From contig NZ_BBIO01000001.1 in NCBI RefSeq assembly GCF_000739695.1, forward strand, positions 1-64,000: DNA of 64,000 nucleotides, read 5' to 3'. Within the stretch, counting starts at the first letter, position 1. Every line of letters begins with the position of its first letter. A program made the translations under genes and the position numbers. Source of the stretch: Tepidicaulis marinus. Lineage in GTDB: Bacteria; Pseudomonadota; Alphaproteobacteria; Parvibaculales; Parvibaculaceae. Below are positions 13,138 to 30,476 of the stretch, one piece after another. The notes under the pieces are model-generated. The model searched no databases. It saw only the letters and a list, made by a program, of their open reading frames with translations, and was not told the origin of the DNA.

Positions 13138-15297
13138 TCAGACCCCAAGTCCCAATGCCTCGCCGGGTCGCGCTTTGGCAGGGGACGCGGCTTTCCGGGT
13201 TTCCTGACCTCGCGTCCTCACAAGTTCGGGCAGAAGCTTTTCCAGGGCCTCCGGTCCCCGTTCCTGCGCGATGTCGTTGAAGTCGGTGAGGCCCTTGGCC
13301 TTCTCGGCCTCCGTCAGCGGCGGCACGATCAGCTCGGCATTCACGGCCTCGGCCGCTTGCCGCGCCCGCGCAAGGCCCGCATTGCGCTCTGTGCCGTGGT
13401 CATCATCGGCCGCGATCACCAGAGCCCGCTCCGGCTCTTTGGCCTTAAGCGCTTCGGCGACAGGACCAAGGTTCCCGGCATCGAAGGCAACAGCGACCTG
13501 GCGGCCGGTCGCCTTCTCAAGACTTGCGGCCGTGGCATAACCCTCCGCGATGAGGAGGGGCCCATCGCCTTCCCCGATCACATGCATAAGGCCGGTCTTG
13601 CGCCCGCCCTTGAGGAAGCGCTTGGTCCCGTCTTCCCGGATCACCTGCAGGTTCCAAAGGAAGCCCTTCTCATCGCGCATGGGGACCAGGAGATTGCCGT
13701 TCTCGTCGAGTTTCAGGCCGTGGCCCTTGACCTGTTTCTTTTCAAGGTAAGGGTGGTTCTGCGGGGCTTCTTCCGCGTTGATATAGACCGCATAGGCGCG
13801 CTTGGCGGTCCTGGCTTGGGTTTCGGCAATCTCCGCTTCAAGGCTCGCCCGCCTTGCCTGGGAGTCCGCTTTGACGCGTGCCAGCTCTTCCGGATCAAGC
13901 CGTGAGCCCGTCGCCACCCATTGCACGGCTTTCTCGCCGGTCTTGTAGTTCATGATCTGACCGGCAGGCCGCCCATCGAGGAAGCCCCGGTAGGAGCCGG
14001 AGAGCTGGCCCTTGCGGTCGCCCTCGACTGGGACCCGGTGCCATTTGCCATCCATCTGCGGCGCGCCTTTGAGCTTGAGGCCGTTCGCCTCCAAGGCCTC
14101 CGCGAACTCTTCTTGCGGCGAGACAGACGGCGCCTCGCGCTTCGGGGCGTTTTCCTGAGGGAGCCATTTGGCCACCGTCTCAAGATCGGTCCCCGCGCGC
14201 ACATACCAGGATTTGCGGCCCCGGTCCCAGCGGGCGCCGAGTTCCTTGGCCGCGTCTTTCTCCTCGTAAGGGACGGCAAGATAGATGCGCTTGGGCGGTT
14301 CTTGTTCCGCGCCGTCTGGCGTGTCCAATTGCGCCTCCTTTTGGGGTTCTGAGCCGAGCGCCTGGGCCTGCTCGGCCCGCTTCTTGTGGGAGAGTTCAAG
14401 GCTGAGACGCTTTTCAGGTTCGAGCACCCAGCTGCGGATGTTCTCCGCGTCCCTGACCGCGCGGAAGAGCGCGGCCGGGTCTTCGCGGATGGTGTTGGCC
14501 CAGGAGCGCACATAGGCCGCATGGCGTTCCGGGAAGTGCCCAAGCCCCAGCTCCGTCGTGATGAGATAGGAGGCGATCTCCGCCCTCAGCTCCTCACGGG
14601 CGTAAGTCTCGGACCCGAAGGCGCCGAACTCGCGGTTTAACCGGCTTTCATGGCCGGTCGCGTGCCCCAGCTCATGGAGCGCCGTGGCGTAATACTCATA
14701 GGCCGTGCCGAACGCCTCCCGTCTTGGCAGATGGATGGCGTCCTTGTTGATGGCATAAAATGCCCTGTCCGTTTGGTCGTGATGGATGGGCACGCCGCCC
14801 CCCGCCAGCACCTTTTCGGCTTCTTCCACGGGCTCGAAGGTGCGTTCCGGGGCCTTGTAGGGCTCCAGCCCGTCGATCTGCTCGGCATTGAAGACGGTCG
14901 CATAAAAGACCTTGGGCCTCTCAAGGCGCACCGTCTCATAAAGCGCATTGCCCTCGCTGTCGGTCAGCGGCCGGCCGGCTTCATTCAGCTTTTGCCGGCG
15001 CTCTTCCCATTTCCAGAACTCGATTTTTGTGCCCTTCTCGCCCTTGCGCACCTGGGCGTCTTGAGCGGCGGCCTGCCGGTAGGTCATCCAGCGCGGGTCT
15101 GTGTAAGGCTGCAGATCGAGCCAGATCGAGTTGATCCCCTTGTAAGCGGTGCCGCTGGCCGGGTTATGCGCCCGGCCCCGGATGAGATTGGGGTCCCAGG
15201 GCTTTTGCCAGGGCGCGGTCCCTTCCTCGATATGCCGCACCAGCTCCTCGATAACGGTCTCCCGCCAGGTCGGGCCTTTCTGCTCTGCCTCAGCCAT
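13138..15297 (-). CDS. ArdC-like / zincin / Toprim fusion protein (antirestriction-primase)
   Basis: A 719-residue multidomain protein. The N-terminal ~130 residues match the ArdC/DUF1738 ssDNA-binding domain (WRETVIEELVRHIEEG, WQKPWD). A zincin-like peptidase domain follows, with ALHELGHATGHESR at about residue 205. A DUF5710-like patch (LAVPYEEKDAAKELGARWD) comes next. The C-terminus is a Toprim-type primase domain: LLIAEGYATAASL holds the catalytic Glu and ALVIAADDDH the Asp pair. Related TraC/ArdC proteins travel with the transferred strand and protect or prime it in the recipient. ATG 15297 overlaps the preceding gene by 8 bases. Confidence 0.85.
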   Translation of the reverse strand: MAEAEQKGPTWRETVIEELVRHIEEGTAPWQKPWDPNLIRGRAHNPASGTAYKGINSIWLDLQPYTDPRWMTYRQAAAQDAQVRKGEKGTKIEFWKWEERRQKLNEAGRPLTDSEGNALYETVRLERPKVFYATVFNAEQIDGLEPYKAPERTFEPVEEAEKVLAGGGVPIHHDQTDRAFYAINKDAIHLPRREAFGTAYEYYATALHELGHATGHESRLNREFGAFGSETYAREELRAEIASYLITTELGLGHFPERHAAYVRSWANTIREDPAALFRAVRDAENIRSWVLEPEKRLSLELSHKKRAEQAQALGSEPQKEAQLDTPDGAEQEPPKRIYLAVPYEEKDAAKELGARWDRGRKSWYVRAGTDLETVAKWLPQENAPKREAPSVSPQEEFAEALEANGLKLKGAPQMDGKWHRVPVEGDRKGQLSGSYRGFLDGRPAGQIMNYKTGEKAVQWVATGSRLDPEELARVKADSQARRASLEAEIAETQARTAKRAYAVYINAEEAPQNHPYLEKKQVKGHGLKLDENGNLLVPMRDEKGFLWNLQVIREDGTKRFLKGGRKTGLMHVIGEGDGPLLIAEGYATAASLEKATGRQVAVAFDAGNLGPVAEALKAKEPERALVIAADDDHGTERNAGLARARQAAEAVNAELIVPPLTEAEKAKGLTDFNDIAQERGPEALEKLLPELVRTRGQETRKAASPAKARPGEALGLGV

Positions 15298-15523
15298 GGG
15301 CGCCTCCCTCAGCGGAGAGCGCGATCTCATCCACCAGGCTGTCGAGCGCGTCCTCTTCAGAGAGCGCGGTCTCTTCAAAGGCGCCCATCTCATCGGCAAG
15401 GTCGGGATCGACGGCAACGGGACCTTGCGCCGCAAGCGCGGGGATCGTGGCCGAGGCGAGACGGCGCCAGACCGTCTCGCCAATTGCTGCCTCGGGGGCA
15501 GAAGTCTCTTCAGTCTCTCTCAT
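15290..15523 (-). CDS. Small acidic protein after virD4
   Basis: A 77-residue acidic protein (about one in four residues is Glu or Asp in its C-terminal half) without a TM segment. The ATG at 15523 has AGGAG 8 bases upstream. It overlaps virD4 by 14 bases and the ArdC-like gene by 8, so it belongs to the operon. An acidic small protein beside an antirestriction gene could be a DNA mimic, but nothing else supports that. Confidence 0.6.
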   Translation of the reverse strand: MRETEETSAPEAAIGETVWRRLASATIPALAAQGPVAVDPDLADEMGAFEETALSEEDALDSLVDEIALSAEGGAHG

Positions 15524-17297
15524 GGGGGGTCTCCTGTTGCAGAGAGGGCGCGGGTGATGTGGGAAGGACGGGCGGCGCCGGGATCGCGGCCCGGCGCGCC
15601 AGCTCCTTGTCCTGGAAGTAAAGGCGCTGCAGGCCCCGGATCGGTGGGGAGCCTGCTGAGAAGATGAGGGCCTCGCCGGGAACGATCTTGCGGCCGTGCT
15701 TTTCGATGCCGCGCAGGCGCATGCACTCATCCGGCGTCAGAAGCGGGCGGCCGGTCTCCCTGAGAGAGTCCGAGACCGAGCCCAAATGACCCAATTTGCC
15801 CGAGCGCGAGCGCTGCTTTTGCACCACCGTCGTCTTGCCGGTCATGTCGGAGAGAAGTTTCGCGGTCTCGATGCGGTTCGGCGCAAAGGCGATCCGCACA
15901 TGACAGTTCGACATGACGGATTCGTCCCGCCCATAGGCCTGGTGCAGCTGGGCAATGTCCTGGACGACCACGAAGGCCTTAAGGCCATAGCCCGCCATGA
16001 AGGCAAGGGCGCGTTCGAAGATCTCAAGCTTGCCGATCGCGGTGAACTCATCGAGCATCAGAAGCAGGCGGTGCTTGTAGGTGTCGATCGACTTGCCGCC
16101 CTCGAACTCCATCCGCTCGGTGAGACGGCGCAGAAGGATGTTCATGATGATGCGGATGAGGGGCCTGAGCCGGTCGATATCGGAGGGCCGGATGATGAGA
16201 TAGAGCGCGGCCGGGGTCTCGCCGTTCACGAGATCGGCCAGCGCAAAGTCACTCTCCGCCGTGTTCCCCGCAATGATAGGATCGGCATAAAGCGCCAGCT
16301 GCGTGATCGCGGAGGAATGCACGCCTGAACGTTCCTGCGGGGCCTTGATCTTCATGCGCGCTGCCCCGCGCCGCACTTCCTTATCGACATGGGGTTTGCC
16401 ATGCTCGAAGGCGATCATGTCATCGAGCAGCGCCTCGAAGTTGTCCTCGCCCGTGCCCTCCTCGATGACGCCGGAGACGAAGGTGTTCACATCATCAAGG
16501 CAGGCATCCCGGCCTTCATCGCGCAGCACCCGATATATGACGTGAAGGATGACGACAGAGAGCCAGGTCCAGCCCTCTTGGCGCCAATAGTCCCGAAGGC
16601 CCTTGCCGTCCGGGTCGATGATCATGGCAGCAATGTTCTGGCAGTCGGCAATGTCCCGGCCGCCTTCAAGGCGCACTTCGGCCAAGGGATTAAACCGCAC
16701 GGTTGAATCGGGGCTGGTCGGCTCGAACTTCAGGATGCGGTGCCCTTGGGAAGCCCGCCATCCGGCCGTCAGGGCGAAGTTCTCGCCCTTGATGTCGAGG
16801 ACGAAGACGCTCTCAGGCCAGGTCAAAAGCGTCGGCAAGATAAGGCTCACGCCCTTACCGGAGCGCGTCGGTGCAAAGACCATCACATGCTCCGGCCCGT
16901 CATGGCGGAGCGTTTCTGTCTTAAGCCGCCCCTTCCAGCCGCCGACCGTGACGCCTTTTGCCGAGAAGAGGCCTGCGGCCTTCACGTCTCTGCGTTCCGC
17001 CCAGCGCGCGGTGCCGTGGAGTTCATCCGCCTCCCGCGCGCCCGAGAGCGTGCGGGCCGAGACACGCGCGGCAAGCGCCGCCACGCCCAGCATGGCAAGA
17101 ACACCGGCGCTCCCCGTCCAGATCGCCGCCGAGACCATCTCGGCCGGAAGACCGGCCGGATGGGCTGCGCTCTTAAAGGCCCATTTCCACCAGCGCGCGT
17201 CCAGCGGGTCAAAACCAACCGCGAGATGCCATTGGAAGAGAATGGCGGCAAGTGCCGCAGTGAAGACGGCAAGAAGAGCGAGGCGGGCGGTCAGCAT
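15510..17297 (-). CDS. virD4: Type IV coupling protein VirD4/TraG
   Basis: A 595-residue inner-membrane ATPase that docks the relaxosome to the secretion channel. Two N-terminal TM segments (about residues 5-25 and 55-80) precede the soluble ring domain. Walker A is FAPTRSGKGVSLILPT (about residue 143) and Walker B is LLLMLDEFTAIGKLEIF (about residue 400). The sequence AYGRDESVMSNCHVRIAFAPN matches the family. Length is normal for TraG/VirD4. Its ATG overlaps the end of the upstream gene by 7 bases. Confidence 0.93.
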   Translation of the reverse strand: MLTARLALLAVFTAALAAILFQWHLAVGFDPLDARWWKWAFKSAAHPAGLPAEMVSAAIWTGSAGVLAMLGVAALAARVSARTLSGAREADELHGTARWAERRDVKAAGLFSAKGVTVGGWKGRLKTETLRHDGPEHVMVFAPTRSGKGVSLILPTLLTWPESVFVLDIKGENFALTAGWRASQGHRILKFEPTSPDSTVRFNPLAEVRLEGGRDIADCQNIAAMIIDPDGKGLRDYWRQEGWTWLSVVILHVIYRVLRDEGRDACLDDVNTFVSGVIEEGTGEDNFEALLDDMIAFEHGKPHVDKEVRRGAARMKIKAPQERSGVHSSAITQLALYADPIIAGNTAESDFALADLVNGETPAALYLIIRPSDIDRLRPLIRIIMNILLRRLTERMEFEGGKSIDTYKHRLLLMLDEFTAIGKLEIFERALAFMAGYGLKAFVVVQDIAQLHQAYGRDESVMSNCHVRIAFAPNRIETAKLLSDMTGKTTVVQKQRSRSGKLGHLGSVSDSLRETGRPLLTPDECMRLRGIEKHGRKIVPGEALIFSAGSPPIRGLQRLYFQDKELARRAAIPAPPVLPTSPAPSLQQETPHERD

Positions 17298-18244
17298 GGG
17301 CGCGCCTCCTTGCCTCTGCGGAACGCGCCCTTTATCGTTTTGATCCAGGCGCTGTAACGGTTCAACTTTTCAACAAAAGAGGATGTCTCATGGTCGAACT
17401 CGTCTCTTGCCGTATTTGCCGCGCCCCTATCGCTTCCGACGCGAGCGGTCCGTGCCCCACCTGCAGCACACAGGATCCCCTCGGACACAGCGCTTTTCTC
17501 ATCCCGCTGACCTTGTTCGGGCTCTGCCTTCTCTCGCTTTTCTCGATCTTCTGACGCAAGCGCCTCGAAGGTCTGGCCGAGCAGGCCGAGATCCCCATCA
17601 AGCACGGATCTGCGCAGGCCCAGATGCCAGAGCGCGGCAAAGGGATTGCCATAAGCAACGCTCAGCCCTTCCGCGCGAAGGGAGAAGTGCGGCTCTCCTT
17701 GCCCACCGAAGGCCATGGAGAGCCGCCAATCCCAGTAAAGCCGCTCACTTGCGCGAAGCTGTCTCAACGCGGCCTCGATCCGGCCGGCTGTTTCAAGATC
17801 GCCATAGAAGGCTACATAGGGCAGCCGCTGGCCGGTTACGTGCCCCTGACAGGACGCGAAGGTCCGAAGGCCCGGCACCTTGCCCAGGCTTTCTACCAGG
17901 GACGCGATCCGCGCATCCGGCGGCACGCCGCGCCAGTCATACCCGTTCCGGAACTTGAAGTAGTGACAACCATAAGAGACCGCTTCGCTGAGGGTCATGA
18001 TACTTGTGAACCCGGCGATGAGGCCGCAAAGATAGGAGGTCATGGTCTCAATCACCGGGAGCGGTATATCGAGGAGAACAAGCCCAGGCACGGCAAAAAA
18101 GGCCGCGAGCCCCGCTTGTTTCAAGGCATTTACACTCCGTTCCTGTTCTCCAAAGCGCCCCGTGAAGGGCAGGAGGAACAAGGCCGCCGCAGCGCCGGGA
18201 AGAGCGCCTGCGAGAGCGGCTGTAAGAGGAAGGCCGGTCAGCAT
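17291..18244 (-). CDS. Membrane-anchored protein between virB11 and virD4
   Basis: A 317-residue protein with three hydrophobic segments in the first ~100 residues, followed by a soluble domain containing PGLRTFASCQGHVTGQRLPY. The last ~80 residues are polar and low in recognisable structure, and are antisense to the small plus-strand ORF at 17390-17554. ATG overlaps the virB11 stop by 7 bases and the gene overlaps virD4 by 7, which supports this frame. I do not recognise the family; the location suggests a link between the channel ATPases and the coupling protein. Confidence 0.65.
   Translation of the reverse strand: MLTGLPLTAALAGALPGAAAALFLLPFTGRFGEQERSVNALKQAGLAAFFAVPGLVLLDIPLPVIETMTSYLCGLIAGFTSIMTLSEAVSYGCHYFKFRNGYDWRGVPPDARIASLVESLGKVPGLRTFASCQGHVTGQRLPYVAFYGDLETAGRIEAALRQLRASERLYWDWRLSMAFGGQGEPHFSLRAEGLSVAYGNPFAALWHLGLRRSVLDGDLGLLGQTFEALASEDREKREKAEPEQGQRDEKSAVSEGILCAAGGARTARVGSDRGAANTARDEFDHETSSFVEKLNRYSAWIKTIKGAFRRGKEARPC
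17390..17554 (+). CDS. Possible antisense zinc-ribbon/TM microprotein
   Basis: A 54-residue ORF on the strand opposite the gene at 17291-18244. It has SCRICRAPI and GPCPTCST, two CxxC pairs 15 residues apart as in a zinc ribbon, followed by a clean TM helix (AFLIPLTLFGLCLLSLFSIF). AGAGG lies 8 bases before the ATG. The order zinc ribbon then TM is sensible, which is unusual for chance antisense sequence. The overlapping minus-strand frame remains well supported, so both may be used, or this one may be fortuitous. Confidence 0.4.
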   Translation: MVELVSCRICRAPIASDASGPCPTCSTQDPLGHSAFLIPLTLFGLCLLSLFSIF

Positions 18245-19188
18245 GTCAGCTCCTCCCCGTCTTTCATCACCCAGCGATCACGGCGCGGCTCCCAGATGTC
18301 GGTAATGCGCCGGAACCCGTCCGAGCTGCGTTTGATCTGGACGACCACATCCACAAGCTCTGTGAGGAACTCCGGCACGCGCGGCATGGCGGCGCCCGAC
18401 CAGGCAATGTTCTGATCGAACTTCCGGTGGATGGCCTGCCAGGGGCTTTCTGCATGGATGGTGCACATGAAGCCCGTGACGCCCGAGTTGAGCGCGGCAA
18501 GGGCAGCAAAGGCGTTCTGGGTTGAGATTTCGCCGAAGAGGATATGATCCGGCGTGATGCGCATGAGATGATCATAGAGCTGGCGCCAATCGAGAAGACC
18601 CGCGCCGGTCCCGGCCTCGCGCGCCGCAATGAGCCCGACGCCGTCCCAGAAGCGCTCGATATGAAGCTCCGGCGTGTCCTCGACCGCGACGACACGCCGG
18701 TTCGCATCGATCGTCTCAAGCAGCATGTTGAGGAGCGTCGTCTTGCCGGTGTTGGTCGCCCCGGCAATGATCATGTTGGCTTCGCTCTGGATAGCTTCCG
18801 TCAGATACTCCCGGATCGCGGGGCTCACCCCCGCCTGTTCCCAGGCAGGGGTAAAGGGATGCTTGCAGCGGATCGCCAGCGAGAGCCCGGTACGGACAGA
18901 CGGCCCCACCAGGCACTCGAAGCGATGGCTCTCCGGCAAGATGCAGGAGAGCTTGGGGCTCTCATCAGCATCAAAGGCAAGGCCATTCGCGTTCCCAAGG
19001 GACCGCGAGATGGACTCGATGACGGCAAGAGAGAGGCCTTTGTCTTCGACAACGCGTTTGCCCTCGCCCCGCCGCTCGGTGACAACCTCGCCCGGCCTGC
19101 TCATGCGGATTTCGACGGTGGCCGGGTCATCGTAATGCACCGAGAGGGGCGCCAAGATTTGCCGGAACAGCGGATTGGGATGCAGCAT
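18238..19188 (-). CDS. virB11: VirB11 secretion ATPase
   Basis: A 316-residue hexameric traffic ATPase. The N-terminal domain precedes the RecA-like core with Walker A GATNTGKTTLLN (about residue 145), the Asp box VVAVEDTPELHI, Walker B region DHILFGEI and the His box TGFMCTIHAESP. All are diagnostic of VirB11/TrbB. It powers pilus assembly and substrate transfer at the inner face of the membrane. It lies ten bases downstream of the Cys-repeat gene and overlaps the next gene by 7 bases. Confidence 0.93.
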   Translation of the reverse strand: MLHPNPLFRQILAPLSVHYDDPATVEIRMSRPGEVVTERRGEGKRVVEDKGLSLAVIESISRSLGNANGLAFDADESPKLSCILPESHRFECLVGPSVRTGLSLAIRCKHPFTPAWEQAGVSPAIREYLTEAIQSEANMIIAGATNTGKTTLLNMLLETIDANRRVVAVEDTPELHIERFWDGVGLIAAREAGTGAGLLDWRQLYDHLMRITPDHILFGEISTQNAFAALAALNSGVTGFMCTIHAESPWQAIHRKFDQNIAWSGAAMPRVPEFLTELVDVVVQIKRSSDGFRRITDIWEPRRDRWVMKDGEELTC

Positions 19189-19197
19189 GACCGGCTC

Positions 19198-21378
19198 CTA
19201 CCCAACACTGGGGCAGGCATTGACCGCCCGCACGTAAGGCGCACCTTCATTCACCCAGCTGCCATACTGGCGCGTTCCATCTGGGAACTGCGTTACCTGG
19301 CGGCTTTGACGGCGGTCGTAATGGGTCATGCTGATCCCGCCGCCGAGCGTGATGCAGTCATTGTAGGAACTGAGGCCTGTCACCTGGCGTGAAGAGGGAA
19401 GATGGACCCAGTACGAACGCCAGGGGCAATAGTTCGGATGGTTGGCGCACCCGGCTCCAAGGTAATTGCCGTCCTTGCCACCCTTCCATTCCGTATAGGC
19501 ATAGACCGTCCGGCTCTCTGCAGAGACCGTGCACTTGTTGCCCTTGTTCACCGGGGCGGCATCGCCGACAACAACCTCGTAAGATGTTCCATCGGGCCGC
19601 CGGTAGAGCTTCACCGAGTCCTGGCCTGCATATTCCGTGCAGCCCTCATACCAGCCCGTGCCATCGAGCTTTGTGGTGAGGCCTTCATAGACGTAAGGCT
19701 CTTCTTCAGCGCCCGGCAGCACTTCAGACGAGAGCACCGTGTAAGGCCCCTGCGGCGTGTCGATGCTTAAGGTGGTGAGCCGGTAGGCGTAGAGCTGGCC
19801 GTCATGGTTCTGCCAGCCGGAGATGGTCTGTTGATGGTTATAGACCGTCTCTGAGTTCACGCATTCCGACACAAACGTGCGCGTGCCCGAGCGCTCATAA
19901 TAAAACCGCTCCTGGCCGTAAGAGACCCCGGCCGAGACATCATGCGTCCAGCTTGCCGGGTTCGTGCAGCCTTCCACCGTCGCAACAAGAGCATTCGCGC
20001 TGCTGTCCGGTTTGCACTCGGTAATGAACTGAGACCCCGTATCGAGGTCGATCTGGATGCGCGACTGGTGTGTGACTGTTCCAAGGTCGCGGCTGACGAT
20101 CGGCTCGCAGACCAGCGCCCCGCCTTCCGTCTCATAGACCTGCCGGTGCGCGTATTCAGTCCCGTCATCCGAGCAGGGCCCCGCCTGCCAAATCGCACCG
20201 TCGAGCTCATAGGTATAGCGGCTCTGCCGGAACGAGCGGTTTGCCGCAAAATCATGGCGGATGGTGCAGCCCTCGACACTGCGCAGAAGAGGCACGGCGG
20301 CCGCTTCCAGCGAAGGCTCGCAGCCGCGCACCTGCACTTCCGTATTGCTGGCATTGAGATAGGTGAGCGCTGCCTGCGGCACCGCCTCTTCTTTCGCGTA
20401 ATCGAGATAGACCGTGCAGGCCCCGCGCTTCTCCGTGATCGGGAAGACTTGCTCTTCATCCGGGGCGCAGTCGCTGACCTCCTGCCGGTTGCCGCCTGCA
20501 TCCGTGTAGAAGAGAAGGTATTGCGCCTGAGCAAGACGGGCCTCGATGTCCACCTTGTCCCCGCACACCGCATAGGATTTTTGGAGGGGGAAGCGGTCAT
20601 TGCCGTCTTCACACTCCGAGTAAGTGACGCGGCCGTCTTCTTCGGTTTCAACGCGGGCCTGCTGGATGGCGACTTGCTGCATCAGATCCACTCGGATCTG
20701 GCAACCCTCATTGGTCACCCGGATGTTCGGGATGGAGGTGGGCTCGACATCAAGCGGCGCCGGGTTCTGATACCCGGCCGCATCCTTGTTCTCGGCCGCA
20801 TTGGAGGGCGCGCCGCTTGCAGCATTCGCCGCTTCCGCCGTCTCCCGCTCTTCGGCCTCCTCGTCTTCTTCCGCCAGGCGTTCCAGAGCGGCAATCAGCT
20901 CATCGCCATTGCCTTCCACATTGATGACGGAGGCCGCATCAAGCTCCGGCCGTTCCAGTGTGAACTGCGCCACGAAGTTCTCGGTATTGAGCGCCTCGAC
21001 TTTGCCGTCCTTCTGGACGCTGGAGAGCACGAGCTGGCCAACAAGCGCGCCGTCGACCTTCACATAGCGCGAATAGGCATTAGCCGTGACGCCTTCGGTC
21101 AGGTTCGCAGGGGCGCCAGGCACCCGCACCAGAGAAAGATCGATCGGTTGCGGCTCGTTTTCAGGGACAGCCGTCAGGTTCTTAGTGCGCGTGACGATCT
21201 CAACCTTGCGGGCAAGCTCCTGAACATTCGGGCTTACTGCGCCTTCCTGCTCGGCCGTCTCGGCAGGGGCGCTTGCGGATGGCTCGGTCGCGCCGGCAGA
21301 GCCCGGCCCGGCCCATAACGACAGGGAAAGAACAGAGACACAGAGTGTGGGTTTGAGCAGCTTAAGCACATTGAGCAT
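19198..21378 (-). CDS. Exported protein with tandem Cys-pair repeats, in the virB operon
   Basis: A 726-residue exported protein. ATG 21378 has AAGGAG 9 bases upstream and begins a signal peptide ending near GSAGA; the longer open frame upstream overlaps virB10 and lacks protein character. Residues ~165-205 are acidic and disordered. From residue 226 on, Cys pairs recur: 226/256, 272/304, 321/353, 371/402, 424/455, 471/506, and less regularly 616/644. Each pair is about 31 residues apart and units start about 49 residues apart. Units share C-x-(I/V)-x-x-D, a Q...Y/R segment and G-x(5-8)-(E/D/G)-C. The family is not recognised. Its place between virB10 and virB11 suggests a surface adhesin or channel-associated component. 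Confidence 0.75.
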   Translation of the reverse strand: MLNVLKLLKPTLCVSVLSLSLWAGPGSAGATEPSASAPAETAEQEGAVSPNVQELARKVEIVTRTKNLTAVPENEPQPIDLSLVRVPGAPANLTEGVTANAYSRYVKVDGALVGQLVLSSVQKDGKVEALNTENFVAQFTLERPELDAASVINVEGNGDELIAALERLAEEDEEAEERETAEAANAASGAPSNAAENKDAAGYQNPAPLDVEPTSIPNIRVTNEGCQIRVDLMQQVAIQQARVETEEDGRVTYSECEDGNDRFPLQKSYAVCGDKVDIEARLAQAQYLLFYTDAGGNRQEVSDCAPDEEQVFPITEKRGACTVYLDYAKEEAVPQAALTYLNASNTEVQVRGCEPSLEAAAVPLLRSVEGCTIRHDFAANRSFRQSRYTYELDGAIWQAGPCSDDGTEYAHRQVYETEGGALVCEPIVSRDLGTVTHQSRIQIDLDTGSQFITECKPDSSANALVATVEGCTNPASWTHDVSAGVSYGQERFYYERSGTRTFVSECVNSETVYNHQQTISGWQNHDGQLYAYRLTTLSIDTPQGPYTVLSSEVLPGAEEEPYVYEGLTTKLDGTGWYEGCTEYAGQDSVKLYRRPDGTSYEVVVGDAAPVNKGNKCTVSAESRTVYAYTEWKGGKDGNYLGAGCANHPNYCPWRSYWVHLPSSRQVTGLSSYNDCITLGGGISMTHYDRRQSRQVTQFPDGTRQYGSWVNEGAPYVRAVNACPSVG

Positions 21379-21397: not shown

Positions 21398-22474
21398 CTA
21401 CTCGGCTTTGGCGATGTACCAGTCCACGGCGGGGCGGATTTGCACCCGTGTGCCCTGGGGAATGGTGATGATGGGGGTGAGGGAAAGCGTCTGTTCGAGC
21501 ACCGAGGCGCTGATTTCGCCGAAACGCTGGGACAGCTCTTCTGCGGCCGCTTCCGATGAAGATGAGGAGGAGCCGTTACCGTCCCCGTCATCCTCAGAGC
21601 TGGTGAGCGCGCTGCCGAAGCGCACGGCCGTTGAGATGCCGGTGAGGAGGAAGGCCGTTCCGTACCTTTCCCAGAAGCGCCGATCGACATTGCCTGCAAT
21701 ACCGGGCTGGCCCTGGACATTGCCGACAAGCGCCTCCAGCTCGCGGATCTCCGCGCGGTGCCCGGCCATCAGGATGCGCGAGCAGCTCAGCGGCAAGCGC
21801 GAGGACCCGATATCTGCAGGCGGCTGGAACGAGCAGAGAAGACGCGAGCCTTTGGGAATGAGGACATTGCGGCCGTGATAGCCAAAGACATCGCGCGCCG
21901 TCTGCACAACGATGGTCCCGGCCTCATCGCCGCCGACCTGGCTATTGATGCCGGTCTCCAGAATGCCGGTGATATAGCGGTCGGCCGTCACGATCCGCTC
22001 ATTGTCCACCGGACGGCTGGAGGTCCGGCGCGGCCCGGCGTAATCAGACGGCGTCACCGAGGCAAGATCGAGCGGGCCTGCCGGTGGCTCGAGGGGCGCG
22101 GGCGGGAGCGGCCGGACCCCGGCCGCTTTTTGTGCCGCCTCCTCATTCACTGCGAGCGCATCCCAGCGCCGGGGCAATGTGCCGGGCCGTGCCCAGGCCG
22201 CCGCCAGCGCTTCCCTGAAGGGATCGGGCTCTGGTTCGGGGGCAGGCTCCGGTAGCTCGATGACCGGCACCGGCGCCTGAGGCTCTGTCCGCTTCTCGAT
22301 AATGATGGGCGGCATGGTCGGCGGCGGCGCGGGCGCAGGCGGCGGCGGAGGGGCAGGCAGTTCCCAGGCGGCCGGATCATCTTCCGGCAAGGCTTGCTGA
22401 GGCCCGGCAGGCGCCGCGCAGGTGCCGCCGAAGGTCAGCCCGAGCGCGAGAGCAATGTCGCAGAAGGCGCTCAT
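21398..22474 (-). CDS. virB10: VirB10/TrbI-type channel protein
   Basis: A 358-residue protein whose C-terminal half is the TrbI domain of the outer-membrane core ring (DVFGYHGRNVLIPKGSRLLC ... GTRVQIRPAVDWYIAKAE), with the antenna region near AFLLTGISTAVRFGSALT. A Pro-rich linker follows the start (residues 40-60). The start at 22474 is fixed by an ATGA overlap with virB9. The N-terminus reads like a signal peptide (CDIALALGLTFGGTCAAP) and not like the cytoplasmic tail plus TM usual for VirB10, so contact with the inner-membrane ATPases may differ. Confidence 0.88.
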   Translation of the reverse strand: MSAFCDIALALGLTFGGTCAAPAGPQQALPEDDPAAWELPAPPPPPAPAPPPTMPPIIIEKRTEPQAPVPVIELPEPAPEPEPDPFREALAAAWARPGTLPRRWDALAVNEEAAQKAAGVRPLPPAPLEPPAGPLDLASVTPSDYAGPRRTSSRPVDNERIVTADRYITGILETGINSQVGGDEAGTIVVQTARDVFGYHGRNVLIPKGSRLLCSFQPPADIGSSRLPLSCSRILMAGHRAEIRELEALVGNVQGQPGIAGNVDRRFWERYGTAFLLTGISTAVRFGSALTSSEDDGDGNGSSSSSSEAAAEELSQRFGEISASVLEQTLSLTPIITIPQGTRVQIRPAVDWYIAKAE

Positions 22475-23523
22475 GCCTCGCCCTCATACTCGATGCAGAG
22501 GAAGCTTTCTCCGCTCTTGAGGGTGATGAGCGGCCTTGTGCTTTCGATGATATAGGTCTGCCCCTGCACCCGCGTGTTGACGAGTTCATCGATCCCGTCA
22601 ACGACCACGTAAGCGGTCGGTAGCTCGATATCCTTCCAGCGCTTGCCGAAGCGGATATAGGTGAAGTGATCGTCGCGGAAGACGGTTTCGGGGCGCAGCT
22701 CCTTGTCGCCCCAGAGCGTATAATCGCCCCAGCCGCGCAGCGCATTCGGATCGAAAGGTGCGCTCGCGACAAAGTCACCATCCGGCGTACCGGGCGCTGT
22801 CTCGGTCAGCCCGGCAACGATGCCGCGAGCGCCGGACAGACCAGGATCACCCGCTATGTCCCCGGCCTGTCCTTCCGGGATGGGGGACGTTTCCCCGGAA
22901 GTGTTTGAGTGGAAGCCCGGCACGGCGATGCCGGTATCTGTGGCAACCGCACCTGCGATCCGCACCACAAGGTCAGGGACCGCATAGGAGTTGAAGCCTT
23001 CAGCGCGCAGGTAAAAAGGATAGAGCGCGCCCGACTTGCCATAGACGACAAGGGAACTGTCATAGCCGTGCCCCACGGGCCGCACCGCGAGGCGCCGCTT
23101 GCCGCGCGCCTTCACCGAGAAGCCGCCATTGTCTCCAAGATCAACAGAGGCAATCTCTTCGCCGCGCGGCAGCTCGATGACAGTGACCATGAACTCGCGC
23201 GTACGGATTTTATAGGTGCACGCCTCGCACATCTCGGCGGTATAGACCGCCTCCTCTGGCTCGGCCTGATCCCAGACCTCTTGAATCTGGCCAGGGGTGC
23301 GCGGGCGCACCAGCGTGCCGAAGAAGCCCTCGGCCTGTTCTTCGGCCTGGATCGCAACGGAATCAGGGAGCGGAAAAGGAGCCGGTTGCGGCTGCGCCTG
23401 GACCGGGGCGTTCGAAGGAACCGGCGGGCGCACGGGGCTTGCCGGTGTCGCGGCGAATGCCACTTGCGGCAGCAGCAGCGCGCCGCCAATGAGGGAAAGG
23501 GTTTTCAAGCGGGTGATAGACAT
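22471..23523 (-). CDS. virB9: VirB9/TrbG-type core-complex protein
   Basis: A 350-residue periplasmic protein with a signal peptide (LSLIGGALLLPQVAFA). After a Pro/Gln-rich linker comes the VirB9 fold, including TREFMVTVIELPRGEEI and the C-terminal beta domain (FTYIRFGKRWKDIELPTAYV ... FLCIEYEGEA). It forms the outer-membrane core with VirB7 and VirB10. A Cys pair in CEACTYK (about residue 100) and one near the end might tether it to the small lipoprotein, as in Agrobacterium VirB9-VirB7, but this is inference. Confidence 0.9.
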   Translation of the reverse strand: MSITRLKTLSLIGGALLLPQVAFAATPASPVRPPVPSNAPVQAQPQPAPFPLPDSVAIQAEEQAEGFFGTLVRPRTPGQIQEVWDQAEPEEAVYTAEMCEACTYKIRTREFMVTVIELPRGEEIASVDLGDNGGFSVKARGKRRLAVRPVGHGYDSSLVVYGKSGALYPFYLRAEGFNSYAVPDLVVRIAGAVATDTGIAVPGFHSNTSGETSPIPEGQAGDIAGDPGLSGARGIVAGLTETAPGTPDGDFVASAPFDPNALRGWGDYTLWGDKELRPETVFRDDHFTYIRFGKRWKDIELPTAYVVVDGIDELVNTRVQGQTYIIESTRPLITLKSGESFLCIEYEGEA

Positions 23524-23526
23524 CTG

Positions 23527-24255
23527 TCAGCCTCGTTCTTTCAAGGTCATGGCCGTCACCACGACCCCGAGCGGGTTCATGTATTTGTCTTCTTCTTTCA
23601 CTTCGCGAGGACGGGTGGTCATCGAGAGGTAGGCGCGCAGCTTTTTGCGCTGGACGGTTTCGGCGCCGCGCGTGTCCACTTGTGTAAAGTCCACAGCGAA
23701 CTTGTAATCACGCCCGAAGCTCGTGATCCCATCGACGGACTCGACACGGATTTCGCGGGTGAGGCCCGATGCAATTGCATCTCTGACTTCGTCAGTTTCG
23801 ATGCGTTCCTTGCGCAGCCGCTCGCTGAGCGCGCGGTCGGTCATGCGCGAGGCCTCCCGGTAGCGCTCGGTTGAGGTCACCGGGTCGATGGCTAGCACGA
23901 GCTGCACATAGCGCCGCGCCATGCTTTCCATCAGAAGGTCGAAGCCTTCCGTCTGGCGCGTAATCGGCTCCACCCGGTAAATGCGGTCATCGGCCGGGTC
24001 CGTCCGAATGAGCGCAATTTCGGTCTCCTTCAAGGGGAGCATCACGGAGAACATCGAGACAAGCACCGTCACGGCCGCGCCGAGCACAATGTTTGTGCCC
24101 GCCGAGAGCCGGAGCATCCAGGCAAGGCGCCGATGCGCCGCTTGGAATGCAAAGGGATCGGCTTCCAGCACCGCGCCATGGGGAGAGACAGGCATCATGT
24201 CGCTTGCCTCTCCCTTACCCGGCCGAAATGCGGTTAGCCGTTCTAACCTGCCCAT
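23527..24255 (-). CDS. virB8: VirB8/TrbF-type inner-membrane protein
   Basis: A 242-residue bitopic protein. A short cytoplasmic N-terminus is followed by a TM segment (about residues 49-73, GTNIVLGAAVTVLVSMFSVMLPL) and a periplasmic NTF2-like domain ending in VVTAMTLKERG. The ATG at 24255 is preferred because GAGG lies upstream and the sequence upstream in frame overlaps the lipoprotein gene. VirB8 nucleates channel assembly. It ends 3 bases before virB9. Confidence 0.88.
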   Translation of the reverse strand: MGRLERLTAFRPGKGEASDMMPVSPHGAVLEADPFAFQAAHRRLAWMLRLSAGTNIVLGAAVTVLVSMFSVMLPLKETEIALIRTDPADDRIYRVEPITRQTEGFDLLMESMARRYVQLVLAIDPVTSTERYREASRMTDRALSERLRKERIETDEVRDAIASGLTREIRVESVDGITSFGRDYKFAVDFTQVDTRGAETVQRKKLRAYLSMTTRPREVKEEDKYMNPLGVVVTAMTLKERG

Positions 24256-24407
24256 GTGTATCCCTCGGAATTGAAGGGGACTTTGAGACAGGCGCAGGGG
24301 CTCGGCTTCAGCTTGTCCGTTCCCTCGCCTGCATTCTTGGGCAGCTCGAAGTTTCCGGCACAGCCGGTCATAAGAACGGCGAGGGAGAAAGGGATGAGCC
24401 ACTTCAT
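24243..24407 (-). CDS. Tiny lipoprotein, VirB7-like position
   Basis: A 54-residue ORF starting at ATG 24407, which overlaps the preceding stop by ATGA, and ending at TAG 24243 inside virB8. It has a signal peptide with lipobox LMTGC (Cys at residue 16), then a short polar chain with a CAC motif. Size, lipobox and place just before virB8 match VirB7, the small outer-membrane lipoprotein that anchors VirB9. There is no family-level sequence signature at this size, so the role is inferred from position. Confidence 0.72.
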   Translation of the reverse strand: MKWLIPFSLAVLMTGCAGNFELPKNAGEGTDKLKPSPCACLKVPFNSEGYTWAG

Positions 24408-24616
24408 GCCGTAGCTCCTTCCATGGCCGTCTCATCGCCCACTTCTTTGGCGCCGACTTCGCGCAGGATCACTTCCCCGTCGAGGGGAATACTGTCGAGC
24501 TTCACGTTGAAGCCCTTGCCGTCGCCATGAACCCAGGCCGCGCCGATGCGGTTCCAGATCACGCGCTCTTTGGTTTCGATGGCCTGCAGGGCGTGGTGCG
24601 TTGGTTTGTTGGTCAT
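24404..24616 (-). CDS. Small conserved-looking protein downstream of virB6
   Basis: A 70-residue soluble protein with VIWNRIGAAWVHGDGKGFNV and LDSIPLDGEVILRE. It overlaps virB6 by ATGA and the lipoprotein gene by ATGA. The pattern resembles small housekeeping-like ORFs found in many alphaproteobacterial accessory regions, function unknown. No signal peptide or TM segment is visible. Confidence 0.62.
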   Translation of the reverse strand: MTNKPTHHALQAIETKERVIWNRIGAAWVHGDGKGFNVKLDSIPLDGEVILREVGAKEVGDETAMEGATA

Positions 24617-25800
24617 TTGCTGCTTCCTTTGTCGAAGACTGGGGTGGTAATGCGATCCATGATCGCTTTCCCCACTGGTGAAAGCGCAGCACCTGTTGTC
24701 TTGCGAGTGTTAGTCGCTAAGTCATAGGCACCACGCAAAGTGCTGATAGTTCCCAGACCTGCGCCAGCGGCCCCTGCACCCCATGAACCAATGCCTTGGG
24801 CGACATTTTTGTAGGTGTTGGGGTTGAGGGCAGCGAGACCGCTCGCAGTAACGCCAGCCGTGATTACGGCGGCCGCCTGGTTGGTGAGCTGCGATCCGGC
24901 AATGGAGTTCGCCATACCCGTTGCCTCGGCCATGAAGGCCGTGCCAAGCCAGCCGAGGATCATGGCAACCCAGAGAGTAGAGCTGGTTAGCGAGAGAACA
25001 TCGGATGGCGTGTTGGCGCTATAGTCAGCAACGGCGAGTGCTTTAACGCCGTAGAGGCAGACAGCCAGCGCGACGGTCGCACCGAAGAGAACCATGAACG
25101 ACGCAAAGAGCGTCTTGATGCCGGTCAGAGCCATGCCCCGCCCCCAACCGAATGCCATCAGCAGCATGAGAATTGGAGACAGTGCGGCGAACATCATCAC
25201 TCGAAAGATCGAGACGACGACCTGCGCGAAGTAAACGATGAGCAGCAACACATAAGGAACGGCAATCAGTATGGCGTAGAGAATCGGCCCTGGATTTGTC
25301 AGTGACGCCTGAGACATGACTTCAGTTGCCAGGCCAAACACCTTCAAGACACCCGTCTCTGCAACCCAGACGAGTTTTTGCATTCCATCCACACCGCTGA
25401 TGCCGGACGTTCCGGCAGGTAGAGTAGCCCGCGAACCAGTACTTGCCCCTTGCGTAGAGACGCCAGTCTTCTCGATTATCGAAGCGGTTGAAAGCACAGC
25501 TCCTGCCGCGCCGCCCATAACGGTGAGCGACGTTGAATAGATTTGATTAACCAGCGTTGGACCTTGCCCTGCCATCAACGTTGCGGCGATAACGACAAAG
25601 ACAAACTCATGGGCTAAACTCATGAGATCGGCTTTGCCCAGGACCATCTTGATTCCGTGAATGACGATCCAGAGTCCGGCAAGCGAAAGGAAAATTACCC
25701 AGAGTGGATCAACCAACACCGTGCTCAAATCTTGAGTGAAGGCATTGGCAAGAGTGACGTACTCGTTCACAACGCCACACGTGAAACAGGCATCAGCCAT
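24613..25800 (-). CDS. virB6: VirB6/TrbL-type polytopic channel protein
   Basis: A 395-residue inner-membrane protein with about six TM segments. The block PYVLLLIVYFAQVVVSIFRV and the following helices LSPILMLLMAFGWGRGMALT match the TrbL/VirB6 core. A Gly/Ala-rich C-terminal tail follows. The family forms part of the path that DNA takes through the inner membrane. Base composition is visibly less GC-rich than in virB4 or virD4. It starts 37 bases from a divergent plus-strand gene. Confidence 0.88.
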   Translation of the reverse strand: MADACFTCGVVNEYVTLANAFTQDLSTVLVDPLWVIFLSLAGLWIVIHGIKMVLGKADLMSLAHEFVFVVIAATLMAGQGPTLVNQIYSTSLTVMGGAAGAVLSTASIIEKTGVSTQGASTGSRATLPAGTSGISGVDGMQKLVWVAETGVLKVFGLATEVMSQASLTNPGPILYAILIAVPYVLLLIVYFAQVVVSIFRVMMFAALSPILMLLMAFGWGRGMALTGIKTLFASFMVLFGATVALAVCLYGVKALAVADYSANTPSDVLSLTSSTLWVAMILGWLGTAFMAEATGMANSIAGSQLTNQAAAVITAGVTASGLAALNPNTYKNVAQGIGSWGAGAAGAGLGTISTLRGAYDLATNTRKTTGAALSPVGKAIMDRITTPVFDKGSSK

Positions 25801-26133: not shown

Positions 26134-26955
26134 TCATTGCTCTTCCTCCTCAGCCGCAGCGCGCTCGCTTGGCGACAAGGTCATCACCATCAACATCGTG
26201 GATTGAACTTTCAGGAGCTGGCCGAGTAGCTGGTTCTGCTGGACGAGCTGCCGGTTGGTCAGGACCTGGCCCTGCGCAATCACTGCCAGACGGTCCTGCT
26301 GGGTTTTCGCGGCGAGTGCGGCAGCTTCCAGCTCTTCGCTGGCCTTCTGGTTCACCTCGGCCGTCTCGCCAACCGCACGGTCTGCCTGGGCGAGACCCTT
26401 GGAGGCCGCGTCCTTTGTCACCGCGCGGCGGCGCGCTTCAACAGTCCGGCGCGCCTCTGCCCTCGCTTCCCATTTTTCTTCTGAGGTGCTGGCCTCGCCC
26501 CAGTTCGCGTTTTCGGGCCAGCTCTCAGGGTCGTTCGGATCGAACCAGAGCGCTTTTTGATAGGCCTGCGAGCCGCCGCAGATGGAATCGAACTGCAGCT
26601 CATCAAGGTCAATACCCGGCATGAGCTTTTCGAAGTCAGGCTTGAGGCACTGCGCATTACGCAAGACCTGGCCCGTCAGCCGCTCAAGGTTGAGCGTCGG
26701 CAGCGTAAGCTGACCAACCTCGCCAATGGCATTGATCTGGTCCTGTACCTGGGAACTCAGTGTGTTCAGCCACTCGGTTTGCTGGCGCAGCTGATCGATC
26801 TGTTCCTGCAGCTTGCTCAGCTGCTCAGAAAGTTTCGCAATTGCACTCGCATCAATTACCGCCATTGCGCTGTAAGCAACGCTCGGCACACCGAAGATGA
26901 GGGAGATGGTAAGAGCTGCGGTGCGCAGGCGTCGTTTTAGAGGTGTTCGGCCCAT
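26134..26955 (-). CDS. VirB5/TrbJ-like periplasmic protein
   Basis: A 273-residue exported protein with a signal peptide ending near YSAMA and a long coiled-coil segment (KLSEQLSKLQEQIDQLRQQ), the usual start of VirB5/TrbJ proteins. A central Cys pair (AQCLKPD and SICGG) and a helical C-terminus follow. VirB5 sits at the pilus tip. ATG 26955 is preferred over 26967 because GGGGAGAGG lies just upstream. It overlaps the virB4 stop by 19 bases. Confidence 0.8.
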   Translation of the reverse strand: MGRTPLKRRLRTAALTISLIFGVPSVAYSAMAVIDASAIAKLSEQLSKLQEQIDQLRQQTEWLNTLSSQVQDQINAIGEVGQLTLPTLNLERLTGQVLRNAQCLKPDFEKLMPGIDLDELQFDSICGGSQAYQKALWFDPNDPESWPENANWGEASTSEEKWEARAEARRTVEARRRAVTKDAASKGLAQADRAVGETAEVNQKASEELEAAALAAKTQQDRLAVIAQGQVLTNRQLVQQNQLLGQLLKVQSTMLMVMTLSPSERAAAEEEEQ

Positions 26956-29321
26956 GCCTCTCCCCATGTTGCTTGAAGGTCCTGAAGATGCTTGTTGGCG
27001 TCAGTGCCCGCCCGGTAGAAGCGCAAGGATTTGCCAAGCGGTGAAAGGTCAACATCGATGATGGCGCTCTCATCGAAGCCCGAGGCCGCATCGCGCTTGA
27101 CGATGAGCGCCCGGCGCTCGCGCCGCGTCGAGGCGCGGCCAAGGACAAAGCTCATTTGCTCATCATTGAGATTGAAAGGCTCGAAGCTCTCGGCCGTGGC
27201 CTGGGCATTCGGCAGGAAAATGAAGGTGGCCGTGTTCTCGATGAAGGCTTCGGCCATACCGGAGCGCAGAAGCGCGGCCGGGTCCTGGAAGGCGAGGCCC
27301 ACGGCGCCATTGAGTTTCCGGTATTCACGGAACATCTCTGCGGCAAGCGCGCGGAAGCCTTCGTTCTGCAGGAGCTTGGCCGCCTCATCGATAAAGATGG
27401 TGAAGCCTTTGGCGGACTTTGCCGCCGATTGGCCGATCGCGGCCGCCATATGCGTGACGACAGGAGGACCAAGTTCCGGGTCACTCAGCGCCTCATTCAT
27501 GTTGATGGCGACCATGTAATGATCGAGCAGGCCTCCAAGGCTGTCATGAGGCGCATTGAAGACGTGGGAATGCAGTCCCCTGTTCCCCTTGTCGTCGATC
27601 ACCCATTTGGCAAAGACCTGGCGCAGCGCCGAGCGCTTGGCAAAGGCAAAGCCATAGATCGCGGAGAGGGTCCGCTCCGGGGGCTCAAGCTGGAACGTCA
27701 GATCGAGAGCGTGCGAGAAGGCGGCTTCTTCCTCGGGGCTTAGCTTGTGATCCCCGGCCAGAGCCCGGAGGATATGATAGACGCGCTGGCGGTTCGCCGG
27801 GGTGTCTTCCCCGACATCGAGCGGATTGAGCGCGAGCTTGTCATAGCTCTGATAGAGCCCGCCCATGGCTTCCACCATGAAGCGCGCGCCTTCCTTGGAA
27901 TCGAAGATGTAGGAGCGCACGCCCTCGAACTTTGCGAGCCCGCCGAGGAGATGCATCATCAGCGTGGACTTGCCGCCGCCCGTGGGGGCAAAGACTAGGT
28001 AGTTGCCGCGTGCCTGGGGCTTGTCTTCCACATGGAACTGGAAGGCATAGGCCTGGCCCGTCGGCGTCCTGAAATAGCGGACCGGCGCCGGGCCGAACTG
28101 GCTGGAAGTCAGGCCTTGCGCGGAGTGCGGCATGGCCCAGAGGGCGGCGATGTTCTCGTCTCTCAGATCAAGCGGCAGCATGAGCCGGGTGCCCGGCATC
28201 AGCTTGCCTCTTGGCACAGACGGCAGCCGGCTGAACCAGCAAATGGGCGCGCCTTTGGTCTGGACCCGGTAGAGGACGCGGGCATGGCCCAAAACCTCGC
28301 AAATATCGCGAACGAGATGGGCAAGCGCGGTCTCTGTCTCGGCCCGCGCAATGATCTGGAACTCGGTGGCAAAGAGTGTGGAGGTGCCTTCCGAGAGGAG
28401 AGACAGGATCACTTCCGTCTCGCCTGCAGCGGCCGGATTGCCGAAGAAGGACCCGCTGAGGGCCTGCTGCTTGCGCTTGTAGATGAGCAGCGCCTTGTCC
28501 CGGTCCCAGGGCTCGCAGATCTGAGCGATCTCGATGTCGCCCGGTAGCGCCAGAATGTCCCCGACGAGGCGGCCCGAGACCGTCTCCGGCCAGGAGATCA
28601 CTCCGATCACCCTATGGAGCTGCTTCTCCGGCACATGGGCCGTGATGACACCGCTCCCCCTCTCGCAGTGAAGATCCGCGCCGGGCAGTGCGCCGGAGAG
28701 ACTTGCCGAGACGGAAGGCAAATCCCGCCGGTAATCGCCGGAGATGAGACCATTGAGGAAGCCGGTGAGCGGGCAGGCCTCCCCGTCTCTTGCCGCCTTG
28801 GCCACGGCCTCAGGCGCATAGTCCCCGGCCTGGGCGGCAATGATCTGTTCGGCATCGATCAGCGGCTGCATCGAGGCCGAGGCGGCCATCAGATACCAGT
28901 CCACAAAGTAGGAGGATTTGAAGAGGGCGGCTTCCGCCTCGCCGATCTCGCTGAGCGCGCGGGCCGGCCAGCGCGCTTCATAGGTTATGGGACGCTTGCG
29001 CTTCACCGCAAAGAGCCGGAGGGAAAGCCCCTTCTTGCCAAGCTCATGCAGGAGAGAGGCCCGGCCGAGCAGGAGCGTGTGCTGCTCCTGTTCGATCTTG
29101 GCATCATAGCTCGTGCCCCGCATCGACCAGACACGCGCGAAGGTGCCGTCCTTCAGGCGGATGGTGAGACCATCGGGCTCGATGGCGTCGAGCGCCAGTT
29201 CGTCCTGCAGCCAGTCCTGCTTGAGGGAGCCCAGCATGAGCTTGCGTGTGGCAGGGACCGCCAGAGCCGCCGCCCCGCCCGCGAGCAATCCCGTTGTGAT
29301 CACTTGCGGCCAGATCGTCAT
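26937..29321 (-). CDS. virB4: VirB4/TrbE secretion ATPase
   Basis: A 794-residue ATPase, the largest energy source of the channel. Two N-terminal hydrophobic stretches are followed by the ATPase core with Walker A LVFAPTGGGKSTLMMHL (about residue 435) and Walker B GFTIFIDEAAKLL (about residue 655). The longer frame open upstream to 29447 is not used: ATG 29321 overlaps virB3 by ATGA. Length matches VirB4. Confidence 0.94.
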   Translation of the reverse strand: MTIWPQVITTGLLAGGAAALAVPATRKLMLGSLKQDWLQDELALDAIEPDGLTIRLKDGTFARVWSMRGTSYDAKIEQEQHTLLLGRASLLHELGKKGLSLRLFAVKRKRPITYEARWPARALSEIGEAEAALFKSSYFVDWYLMAASASMQPLIDAEQIIAAQAGDYAPEAVAKAARDGEACPLTGFLNGLISGDYRRDLPSVSASLSGALPGADLHCERGSGVITAHVPEKQLHRVIGVISWPETVSGRLVGDILALPGDIEIAQICEPWDRDKALLIYKRKQQALSGSFFGNPAAAGETEVILSLLSEGTSTLFATEFQIIARAETETALAHLVRDICEVLGHARVLYRVQTKGAPICWFSRLPSVPRGKLMPGTRLMLPLDLRDENIAALWAMPHSAQGLTSSQFGPAPVRYFRTPTGQAYAFQFHVEDKPQARGNYLVFAPTGGGKSTLMMHLLGGLAKFEGVRSYIFDSKEGARFMVEAMGGLYQSYDKLALNPLDVGEDTPANRQRVYHILRALAGDHKLSPEEEAAFSHALDLTFQLEPPERTLSAIYGFAFAKRSALRQVFAKWVIDDKGNRGLHSHVFNAPHDSLGGLLDHYMVAINMNEALSDPELGPPVVTHMAAAIGQSAAKSAKGFTIFIDEAAKLLQNEGFRALAAEMFREYRKLNGAVGLAFQDPAALLRSGMAEAFIENTATFIFLPNAQATAESFEPFNLNDEQMSFVLGRASTRRERRALIVKRDAASGFDESAIIDVDLSPLGKSLRFYRAGTDANKHLQDLQATWGEAWAEHL

Positions 29322-29632
29322 GCCTGCCCCCTTGAGATCCGTCCTCCGGCAATGAGGACACGGGTCTCGCCCTTGCCCGCCCAGAAGCGGGTGGCAAGGA
29401 GAAGATCCCGGTCGAAGAAGGGATTGGCGCGGGTGGCGCGCAGGCACAGGAACCAGAGCCCGACAAAGACCGCCCCGGCCAGGGGCAGGGTGAGCGCGAT
29501 CACATCGAGCACCACGGTAATGGCCGCCGTTACGCCTGCGCTGCCTGCGGCAATCACCACAAGCGGCAGCGCAAGCCCGAGCACACCCGGCTGGCGCTGG
29601 GACTGGACGAGGACGGCGCTTGCGGCTTTCAT
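29318..29632 (-). CDS. virB3: VirB3/TrbD-like membrane protein
   Basis: A 104-residue protein with two TM segments (LALPLVVIAAGSAGVTAAIT and IALTLPLAGAVFVGLWFLCL) followed by ATRANPFFDRDLL, a typical VirB3 C-terminal motif. The ATG at 29632 overlaps virB2 by ATGA, which fixes the start. VirB3 works with VirB4 in the inner membrane. Confidence 0.85.
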   Translation of the reverse strand: MKAASAVLVQSQRQPGVLGLALPLVVIAAGSAGVTAAITVVLDVIALTLPLAGAVFVGLWFLCLRATRANPFFDRDLLLATRFWAGKGETRVLIAGGRISRGQA

Positions 29633-29955
29633 TGGCGCGCGACCTCCAGCAGAGCCACGATCATCGTGGGGCCAACCATGATGAGCAGCCCCCCGACGAG
29701 CCGCATGCCGAAGGACTTCCAATCGATCTGGCCGGTCAAAACGCCGTAGATGCCAAGAGCGATGATCCCGACGCCGATCAGAACGACACCGATGTTCACA
29801 AGGCCGCTTTGAAGGACTTCGATAAGACCCGTGGCAGGCTCTTCCCACCCATTCCCGACATCTTGAGCGAAGGCGGGAAGGCTTGAGAGACACAGAGCAA
29901 TGAGTGACGCGGCGGAGAAAGCCAAAAGGTGATCGCGCAAGTTTTTCAGCGCCAT
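29629..29955 (-). CDS. virB2: VirB2/TrbC pilin
   Basis: A 108-residue prepilin. The long signal sequence ends at AFAQ and the mature pilin has two hydrophobic helices (IGVVLIGVGIIALGIYGVL and LVGGLLIMVGPTMIVALL). This arrangement is diagnostic of VirB2/TrbC. It is the first gene of the virB2-virB11 series and follows the TraM-like gene by 12 bases. Confidence 0.9.
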   Translation of the reverse strand: MALKNLRDHLLAFSAASLIALCLSSLPAFAQDVGNGWEEPATGLIEVLQSGLVNIGVVLIGVGIIALGIYGVLTGQIDWKSFGMRLVGGLLIMVGPTMIVALLEVARQ

Positions 29956-30405: not shown

Positions 30406-30449
30406 GCCCGTGCCTCCACCCCCAAAGCGCTCAGAAGGCTCTGGACATT

Positions 30450-30469: not shown

Positions 30470-30476
30470 TTCTCCG

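Follow-up and report, generated by a model that had tools for sequence, protein, structure and literature searches.

Between virB10 and virB11 of a conjugation operon in Tepidicaulis marinus lies a gene for a 726-aa exported protein (here called X), and the question is what such a protein does in a VirB/D4-type system. An initial annotation had singled it out for a regular Cys-pair repeat. The window, that is the whole 64,000-nucleotide stretch analysed, contained the following conjugation genes.

9141–10714, minus strand: relaxase (MobA/VirD2-like) and NikA-like accessory gene (PF03432, PF21983)
15510–17297, minus strand: virD4 coupling protein (PF02534, E=6e-101)
18238–19188, minus strand: virB11 ATPase (PF00437, E=3e-19)
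19198–21378, minus strand: gene X, the open reading frame between virB10 and virB11
21398–22474, minus strand: virB10 (TrbI; PF03743, E=7e-37)
22471–23523, minus strand: virB9 (CagX; PF03524)
23527–24435, minus strand: virB8 (PF04335)
24613–25800, minus strand: virB6 (TrbL; PF04610, E=1.7e-4, below the family cut-off)
26134–26967, minus strand: virB5-like pilus-tip protein (by position and sequence; no Pfam match)
26937–29447, minus strand: virB4 ATPase (28–46% identity to other VirB4 proteins)
29629–29955, minus strand: virB2 pilin (TrbC; PF04956)

The PF03743 and PF00437 matches bear out that the genes flanking X are really virB10 and virB11, as had been assumed. The VirB/D4 (MPF_T-like) set in the window comprises VirB2, 4, 6, 8, 9, 10 and 11, VirD4 and a relaxase, and the system is conjugative because the relaxase and the NikA-like accessory gene are present. 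A Shine-Dalgarno-like AAAGGAG precedes the ATG of X, and virB11 begins ~10 nt after its stop codon.

Several other genes of the region are recorded here. A 317-aa protein with hydrophobic stretches and no Pfam match (17291–18244, minus strand) lies between virB11 and virD4, unlike in Thalassospira and Magnetospirillum relatives, where virD4 follows virB11 directly. At 13138–15483 (minus strand), an ArdC N-terminal domain, a zincin peptidase, DUF5710 and a Toprim domain are joined in one protein. By eye, a look-alike of RelE/HigB-type addiction toxins was found at 30384–30767 (plus strand), with the T4SS operon on one side and a ParA/TraL-like gene on the other. A multicopper oxidase (Pfam Cu-oxidase domains) and then a PcoB/CopB-like outer-membrane protein (by eye) occupy 6182–8841 (plus strand); the two make up a copper-resistance pair next to the genes for conjugation.

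From N- to C-terminus, the coding sequence of X was divided as follows.

21289–21378, minus strand: Sec-type signal peptide, residues 1–30, predicted from sequence
20737–21288, minus strand: N-terminal domain (residues ~31–170) and acidic low-confidence linker (~171–214), from the AlphaFold model
19825–20736, minus strand: stalk of six Cys-pair repeat units (residues ~215–518), from the unit HMM; model pLDDT ~75–91
19567–19824, minus strand: collar (residues ~519–604) with a conserved Y-x-R-P-D-G hairpin motif at its end, from alignments and the model
19201–19566, minus strand: hypervariable C-terminal tip cassette (residues ~605–726), from sequence comparison

Similar signal peptides were present at the N-termini of the homologues, and neither a lipobox nor an outer-membrane anchor was seen in the sequence of X. 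In the AlphaFold model of the mature protein, pLDDT was ~80 for residues 27–140 and <50 for residues 141–185. The initial annotation knew no named family for X, and indeed Pfam, NCBIfam and PHROGs gave zero family matches at E≤10. A PDB sequence search with X returned nothing credible, as did searches of 15 X members against Pfam, NCBIfam and the PDB, and no matches were found in phage and viral-contig searches.

The repeat is real: it exceeds chance, and six units are certain. Their Cys pairs are exactly those reported in the initial annotation (226/256, 272/304, 321/353, 371/402, 424/455 and 471/506), with first-Cys spacings of 46, 49, 50, 53 and 47 residues (mean 49). In a leave-one-out test, each unit was scored with an HMM built from the other five and compared with 500 shuffles of its non-Cys residues, every Cys staying in place; units 1, 2, 4, 5 and 6 outscored all 500 shuffles and unit 3 outscored 497. 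A unit HMM built from homologues recovered these six units in almost every relative. The weaker seventh unit that had also been claimed, C616/C644, did not hold up; it scored −0.7 and was equalled by 117 of the 500 shuffles, so this pair belongs to the non-repeat tip. Cys 580, 651, 675 and 722, which had gone unmentioned, are also present. The consensus given for the unit needed similar trimming: C-x-(I/V)-x-x-D is strict in units 1, 3 and 4 only, units 5 and 6 carrying insertions, and E, D or G precedes the second Cys in five of the six units, unit 4 having P.

The expectation of repeated domains in the predicted structure was borne out, as all six units share a common strand pattern in the AlphaFold model (eight sequences): a short strand after the first Cys, a longer one (broken in unit 3), another short one, and a strand starting at or near the second Cys. 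The number of units varied across the family by the unit HMM, with six in most members, five in some, eight in Roseibium and at least ten in one contig-cut copy. The repeat is better read as a stalk, predicted to be a beta-rich rod of ~49-aa units. In fold searches, the whole model was submitted to both Foldseek and VIA-align, and a model of the collar and tip of a Thalassospira member to Foldseek. For a solved fold resembling the stalk repeat, the whole model gave a Foldseek TM of ~0.06 and a best VIA-align Z of 3.6 over 39 residues; a DDB1 propeller-like match and other low-score fold matches, with TM (query) ≤0.17, were taken as chance beta matches.

To place X among conjugation systems, we surveyed its relatives and their gene neighbourhoods. 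A tblastn search of 72,556 plasmids matched 15 records, from Roseibium, Thalassospira, Magnetospirillum, Magnetospira, Azospirillum, Nitrosospira, Desulfovibrio and Aliarcobacter. X lay beside virB10 and/or virB11 in all 15, with both neighbours in 12 and the locus cut by the record end in three. In one family of 29 genomes, assigned to Thalassospira by the identity of a T. marina copy, 16 carried X, in 22 copies. The genomic loci gave the same picture (virB10 and virB11 both flank X in 23 of 24, L041–L064; the remaining locus is cut). The host genome had three X copies, each in its own T4SS, and no T4SS copy without X.

As a check on circularity, a second search was made from VirB11 alone. 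Among the loci that it returned, X was found upstream in 6/6 T4SS loci of other genomes that had upstream sequence, four of them new to the X searches. One VirB11-like locus (L084) lacked X as well as any recognised virB10 or virD4, and the other loci from this search look like CpaF of Tad pili, judging from how long they are and from the absence of vir genes around them. Homologues were thus almost always between virB10 and virB11, and every one inspected was in a T4SS locus, rather than mainly away from conjugation genes. X is almost certainly a T4SS component, and its conserved neighbourhood shows it, at the level of sequence comparison, to be a co-conserved core part of one VirB/D4 conjugation lineage.

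The family appears undescribed in the literature searched. The Arcobacter butzleri plasmid AC1119 contains a 2013-bp gene, peg.27, listed only as a hypothetical protein between trbI (virB10) and virB11 (PMC3896396); it is a distant X-family member in the same gene position, published without comment. An insertion between virB10 and virB11 described in PMC10913469 is an IS element and not X. A weaker remote relative with one recognisable unit occurs on a T4SS plasmid, pHS_2 of Helicobacter suis (7403–9379 of that locus), where it is not between virB10 and virB11. On Roseibium aggregatum S1616 plasmid unnamed2 (3208–5943 of L074), X is annotated as several separate fragments and so may be broken. 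In the Thalassospira locus L052, the virB10 match is separated from the X frame by ~740 bp (~740–1480), and aligning L058 with L052 leaves a gap of ~700 bp at this place.

The C-terminal tip, ~120–140 aa long across members, stood apart from the remainder of the protein. Thalassospira backbones that were 85–95% identical had tips that were 25–42% identical or without a detectable match, for example L058 and L052 (backbone 95%, tip 42%) and L044 and L050 (backbone 85%, no detectable tip match). The reverse was seen in L043 and L062, whose backbones were 32% and tips 73% identical. A Roseibium plasmid (L072) likewise had a clearly related backbone and a very different tip. Sliding comparisons gave sharp boundaries: DNA identity was ~90% in virB10 and the X backbone, ~35–60% (falling to ~40%) over 400–500 bp at the tip, and ~90% again in virB11. 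The variable stretch stops with the termination codon of X, a codon that either overlaps virB11 or directly adjoins it; DNA identity returns to 86–95% from there, and because of this arrangement no partner gene fits after the tip. At the level of sequence, X is thus shown to be of the exported type, its stalk to consist of repeated Cys-pair units whose number varies, and its C-terminal tip to be a hypervariable cassette exchanged between backbones.

The three conjugation systems of the host genome lie on contigs C46 (the window), C22 and C24; two are close (VirD4 96%, VirB11 92%) and one is remote (22–34%). Comparing the window with the C24 system, VirB4, 5, 6, 8, 9, 10 and 11 and VirD4 were 22–34% identical and the stalk 31%, while the tip was 57% identical. 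Between the two close copies, X was the least conserved operon product (71% identity), with a dN of 0.22 compared to 0.03–0.14 for the others tested. Positive selection was unsupported for this pair, since dN/dS was <1 in all parts of X and the tip had the lowest dN (0.12); tip diversity therefore looks like exchange and old divergence. A plasmid search with the tip alone gave no credible match, and a search of the host genome for silent tip copies found only the tips of the three X genes and one match at E=0.4. The tips contain Cys, are predicted to be beta-rich and match no family. Their models were poor (pLDDT <50 in the window protein; 59 overall for the Thalassospira collar and tip), and no fold match was obtained; the SiiE adhesin, which topped the list at E=0.05, has no evidence value.

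Tip type followed host genus. With tip homology defined as E<1e-5, tips were homologous in 47/50 same-genus and 0/122 cross-genus pairs at ~33% backbone identity, and in 71/79 same-genus and 0/41 cross-genus pairs at ~50%. These pairs are not independent: Thalassospira supplies most of them and the host genus two, and the comparison rests mainly on these two genera. Within Thalassospira and within the host genus, divergent T4SS lineages carry the local tip type. By these comparisons, the tip cassette is shown to be specific to the host genus.

The favoured reading is that X serves a VirB/D4-type (MPF_T-like) system as a mating-pair adhesin on the donor surface, with a tip that recognises the recipient; we regard this as probable, though by a modest measure, from the sequence patterns and from analogy with known adhesins. 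The anatomy is that of an adhesin because X is an exported rod of variable length with a conserved docking end and an exchanged distal end, and we infer that X is very likely surface exposed. The disulfide-rich surface adhesin or recipient-recognition factor proposed in the initial annotation is in this sense supported, recipient binding being the part that we infer; the strongest evidence for it is the tip (~19201–19566), which lies outside the stretch delimited there. In the proposed mechanism, each Cys pair would close a disulfide in the periplasm, giving a stiff rod, and the N-terminal domain would dock on the VirB7/9/10 outer-membrane core complex, so that the stalk could hold the tip outside the cell. 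The tip would bind a recipient surface molecule (porin, LPS or similar) and so stabilise the mating pair. As productive matings would mostly involve kin, tips would come to follow host genus, and the conserved collar and virB11 would be where recombination swaps them.

The link between tip type and host genus would be explained just as well if the tip contacted the envelope of the donor itself. X could then be a structural channel or pilus part, with a tip that docks on the donor's outer membrane or peptidoglycan and must fit the host envelope. Tips that keep to the genus across unrelated T4SS lineages agree with this, as do the nearly invariant gene order beside virB10 and the need for the pKpQIL TraN base in pilus biogenesis (PMC13104618). 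A fixed envelope partner, however, should constrain the tip, yet same-genus backbones 90–95% identical have tips only 25–42% identical, and the stalk length is variable. We regard this explanation as unlikely, if the least so of the alternatives.

Exposure of X could also mean that surface exclusion or donor-specific phages act on it, in which case escape would drive tip diversity and recipient binding would be secondary or absent. Surface exclusion is a serious rival driver because TraN sets the exclusion groups, and hence surface-exclusion specificity, in IncC plasmids (PMC11493245), and the coexistence of three related systems in one genome is a setting where exclusion would matter. These three systems nevertheless share one tip type, opposite to what escape from mutual exclusion predicts, and no variable partner gene adjoins the tip, which makes this explanation rather less probable still.

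Compared to known systems, the mating-pair adhesin reading has its closest parallel in F-type TraN, whose variable tip, borne on a conserved base, engages a porin of the recipient by insertion or contact; exchanging that tip alters specificity (PMC9246713, PMC13104618). Like X, TraN (IncF, IncA/C, IncH; PF06986) is a Cys-rich exported conjugation protein with a conserved base and a swappable tip, and its tip type is associated with host species (PMC9246713, PMC13104618) as that of X is with host genus. X differs in its regular tandem Cys-pair stalk, its C-terminal tip and its VirB/D4-type rather than F-type (MPF_F) operon. That X is a divergent true homologue of TraN, Cys-rich, exported and encoded in a conjugation operon with a constant base and variable tip, is very improbable: X had no PF06986 match at E≤10, the 14 other X members had none at E≤1 and the host genome had none either, comparing X with five TraN proteins in hhalign gave a probability of 0.1%, the X repeat HMM found nothing in TraN, and the TraN tip is internal (e.g. 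residues 230–360 of 912, PMC13104618) whereas that of X is C-terminal. X would instead work like TraN, having arisen independently or diverged beyond recognition. Least credible of all is a polymorphic toxin, in which a long conserved carrier would bear a swapped toxic domain; the long conserved N-terminal part and short hypervariable C-terminal domain of X fit such a design, but this reading fails without an immunity gene, for which the junction with virB11 leaves no place, and the tips are Cys-containing, predicted to be beta-rich and without a family match.

Other adhesins offer partial parallels. In IncI plasmids, the variable C-terminal adhesin end of PilV, generated by the R64 shufflon, sets recipient choice (PMC10516633). 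PilV resembles X in this variable C-terminal end, but it is carried by a type IV pilus and owes its variation to site-specific inversion, whereas X has no pilin features or silent tip copies in the host genome and varies by exchange between replicons. The KikA-Pep family and VirB5/TraC of pKM101-type systems are accessory surface adhesins of VirB-type conjugation, and such adhesins differ between T4SS types (PMC12624023). By description, X differs from them in its large size, its repeats and its swapped tip, and the window operon has its own virB5-like gene (26134–26967) besides X.

For R388 and RP4, no specific recipient factor is known (PMC10516633), and how VirB-type conjugation machines choose and grip recipients is largely open; the X family offers a concrete candidate. 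It extends over Alpha- and Betaproteobacteria, Desulfovibrio and Campylobacterota, and we see an even chance that it is a widespread, unnamed family of recipient-recognition adhesins built into a VirB/D4 lineage, whose exchangeable tips set the mating genus. The fixed gene position makes X easy to find in new genomes, and if this reading is true, the sequence of a ~125-aa tip would help to predict plasmid exchange among bacteria in sea and soil.
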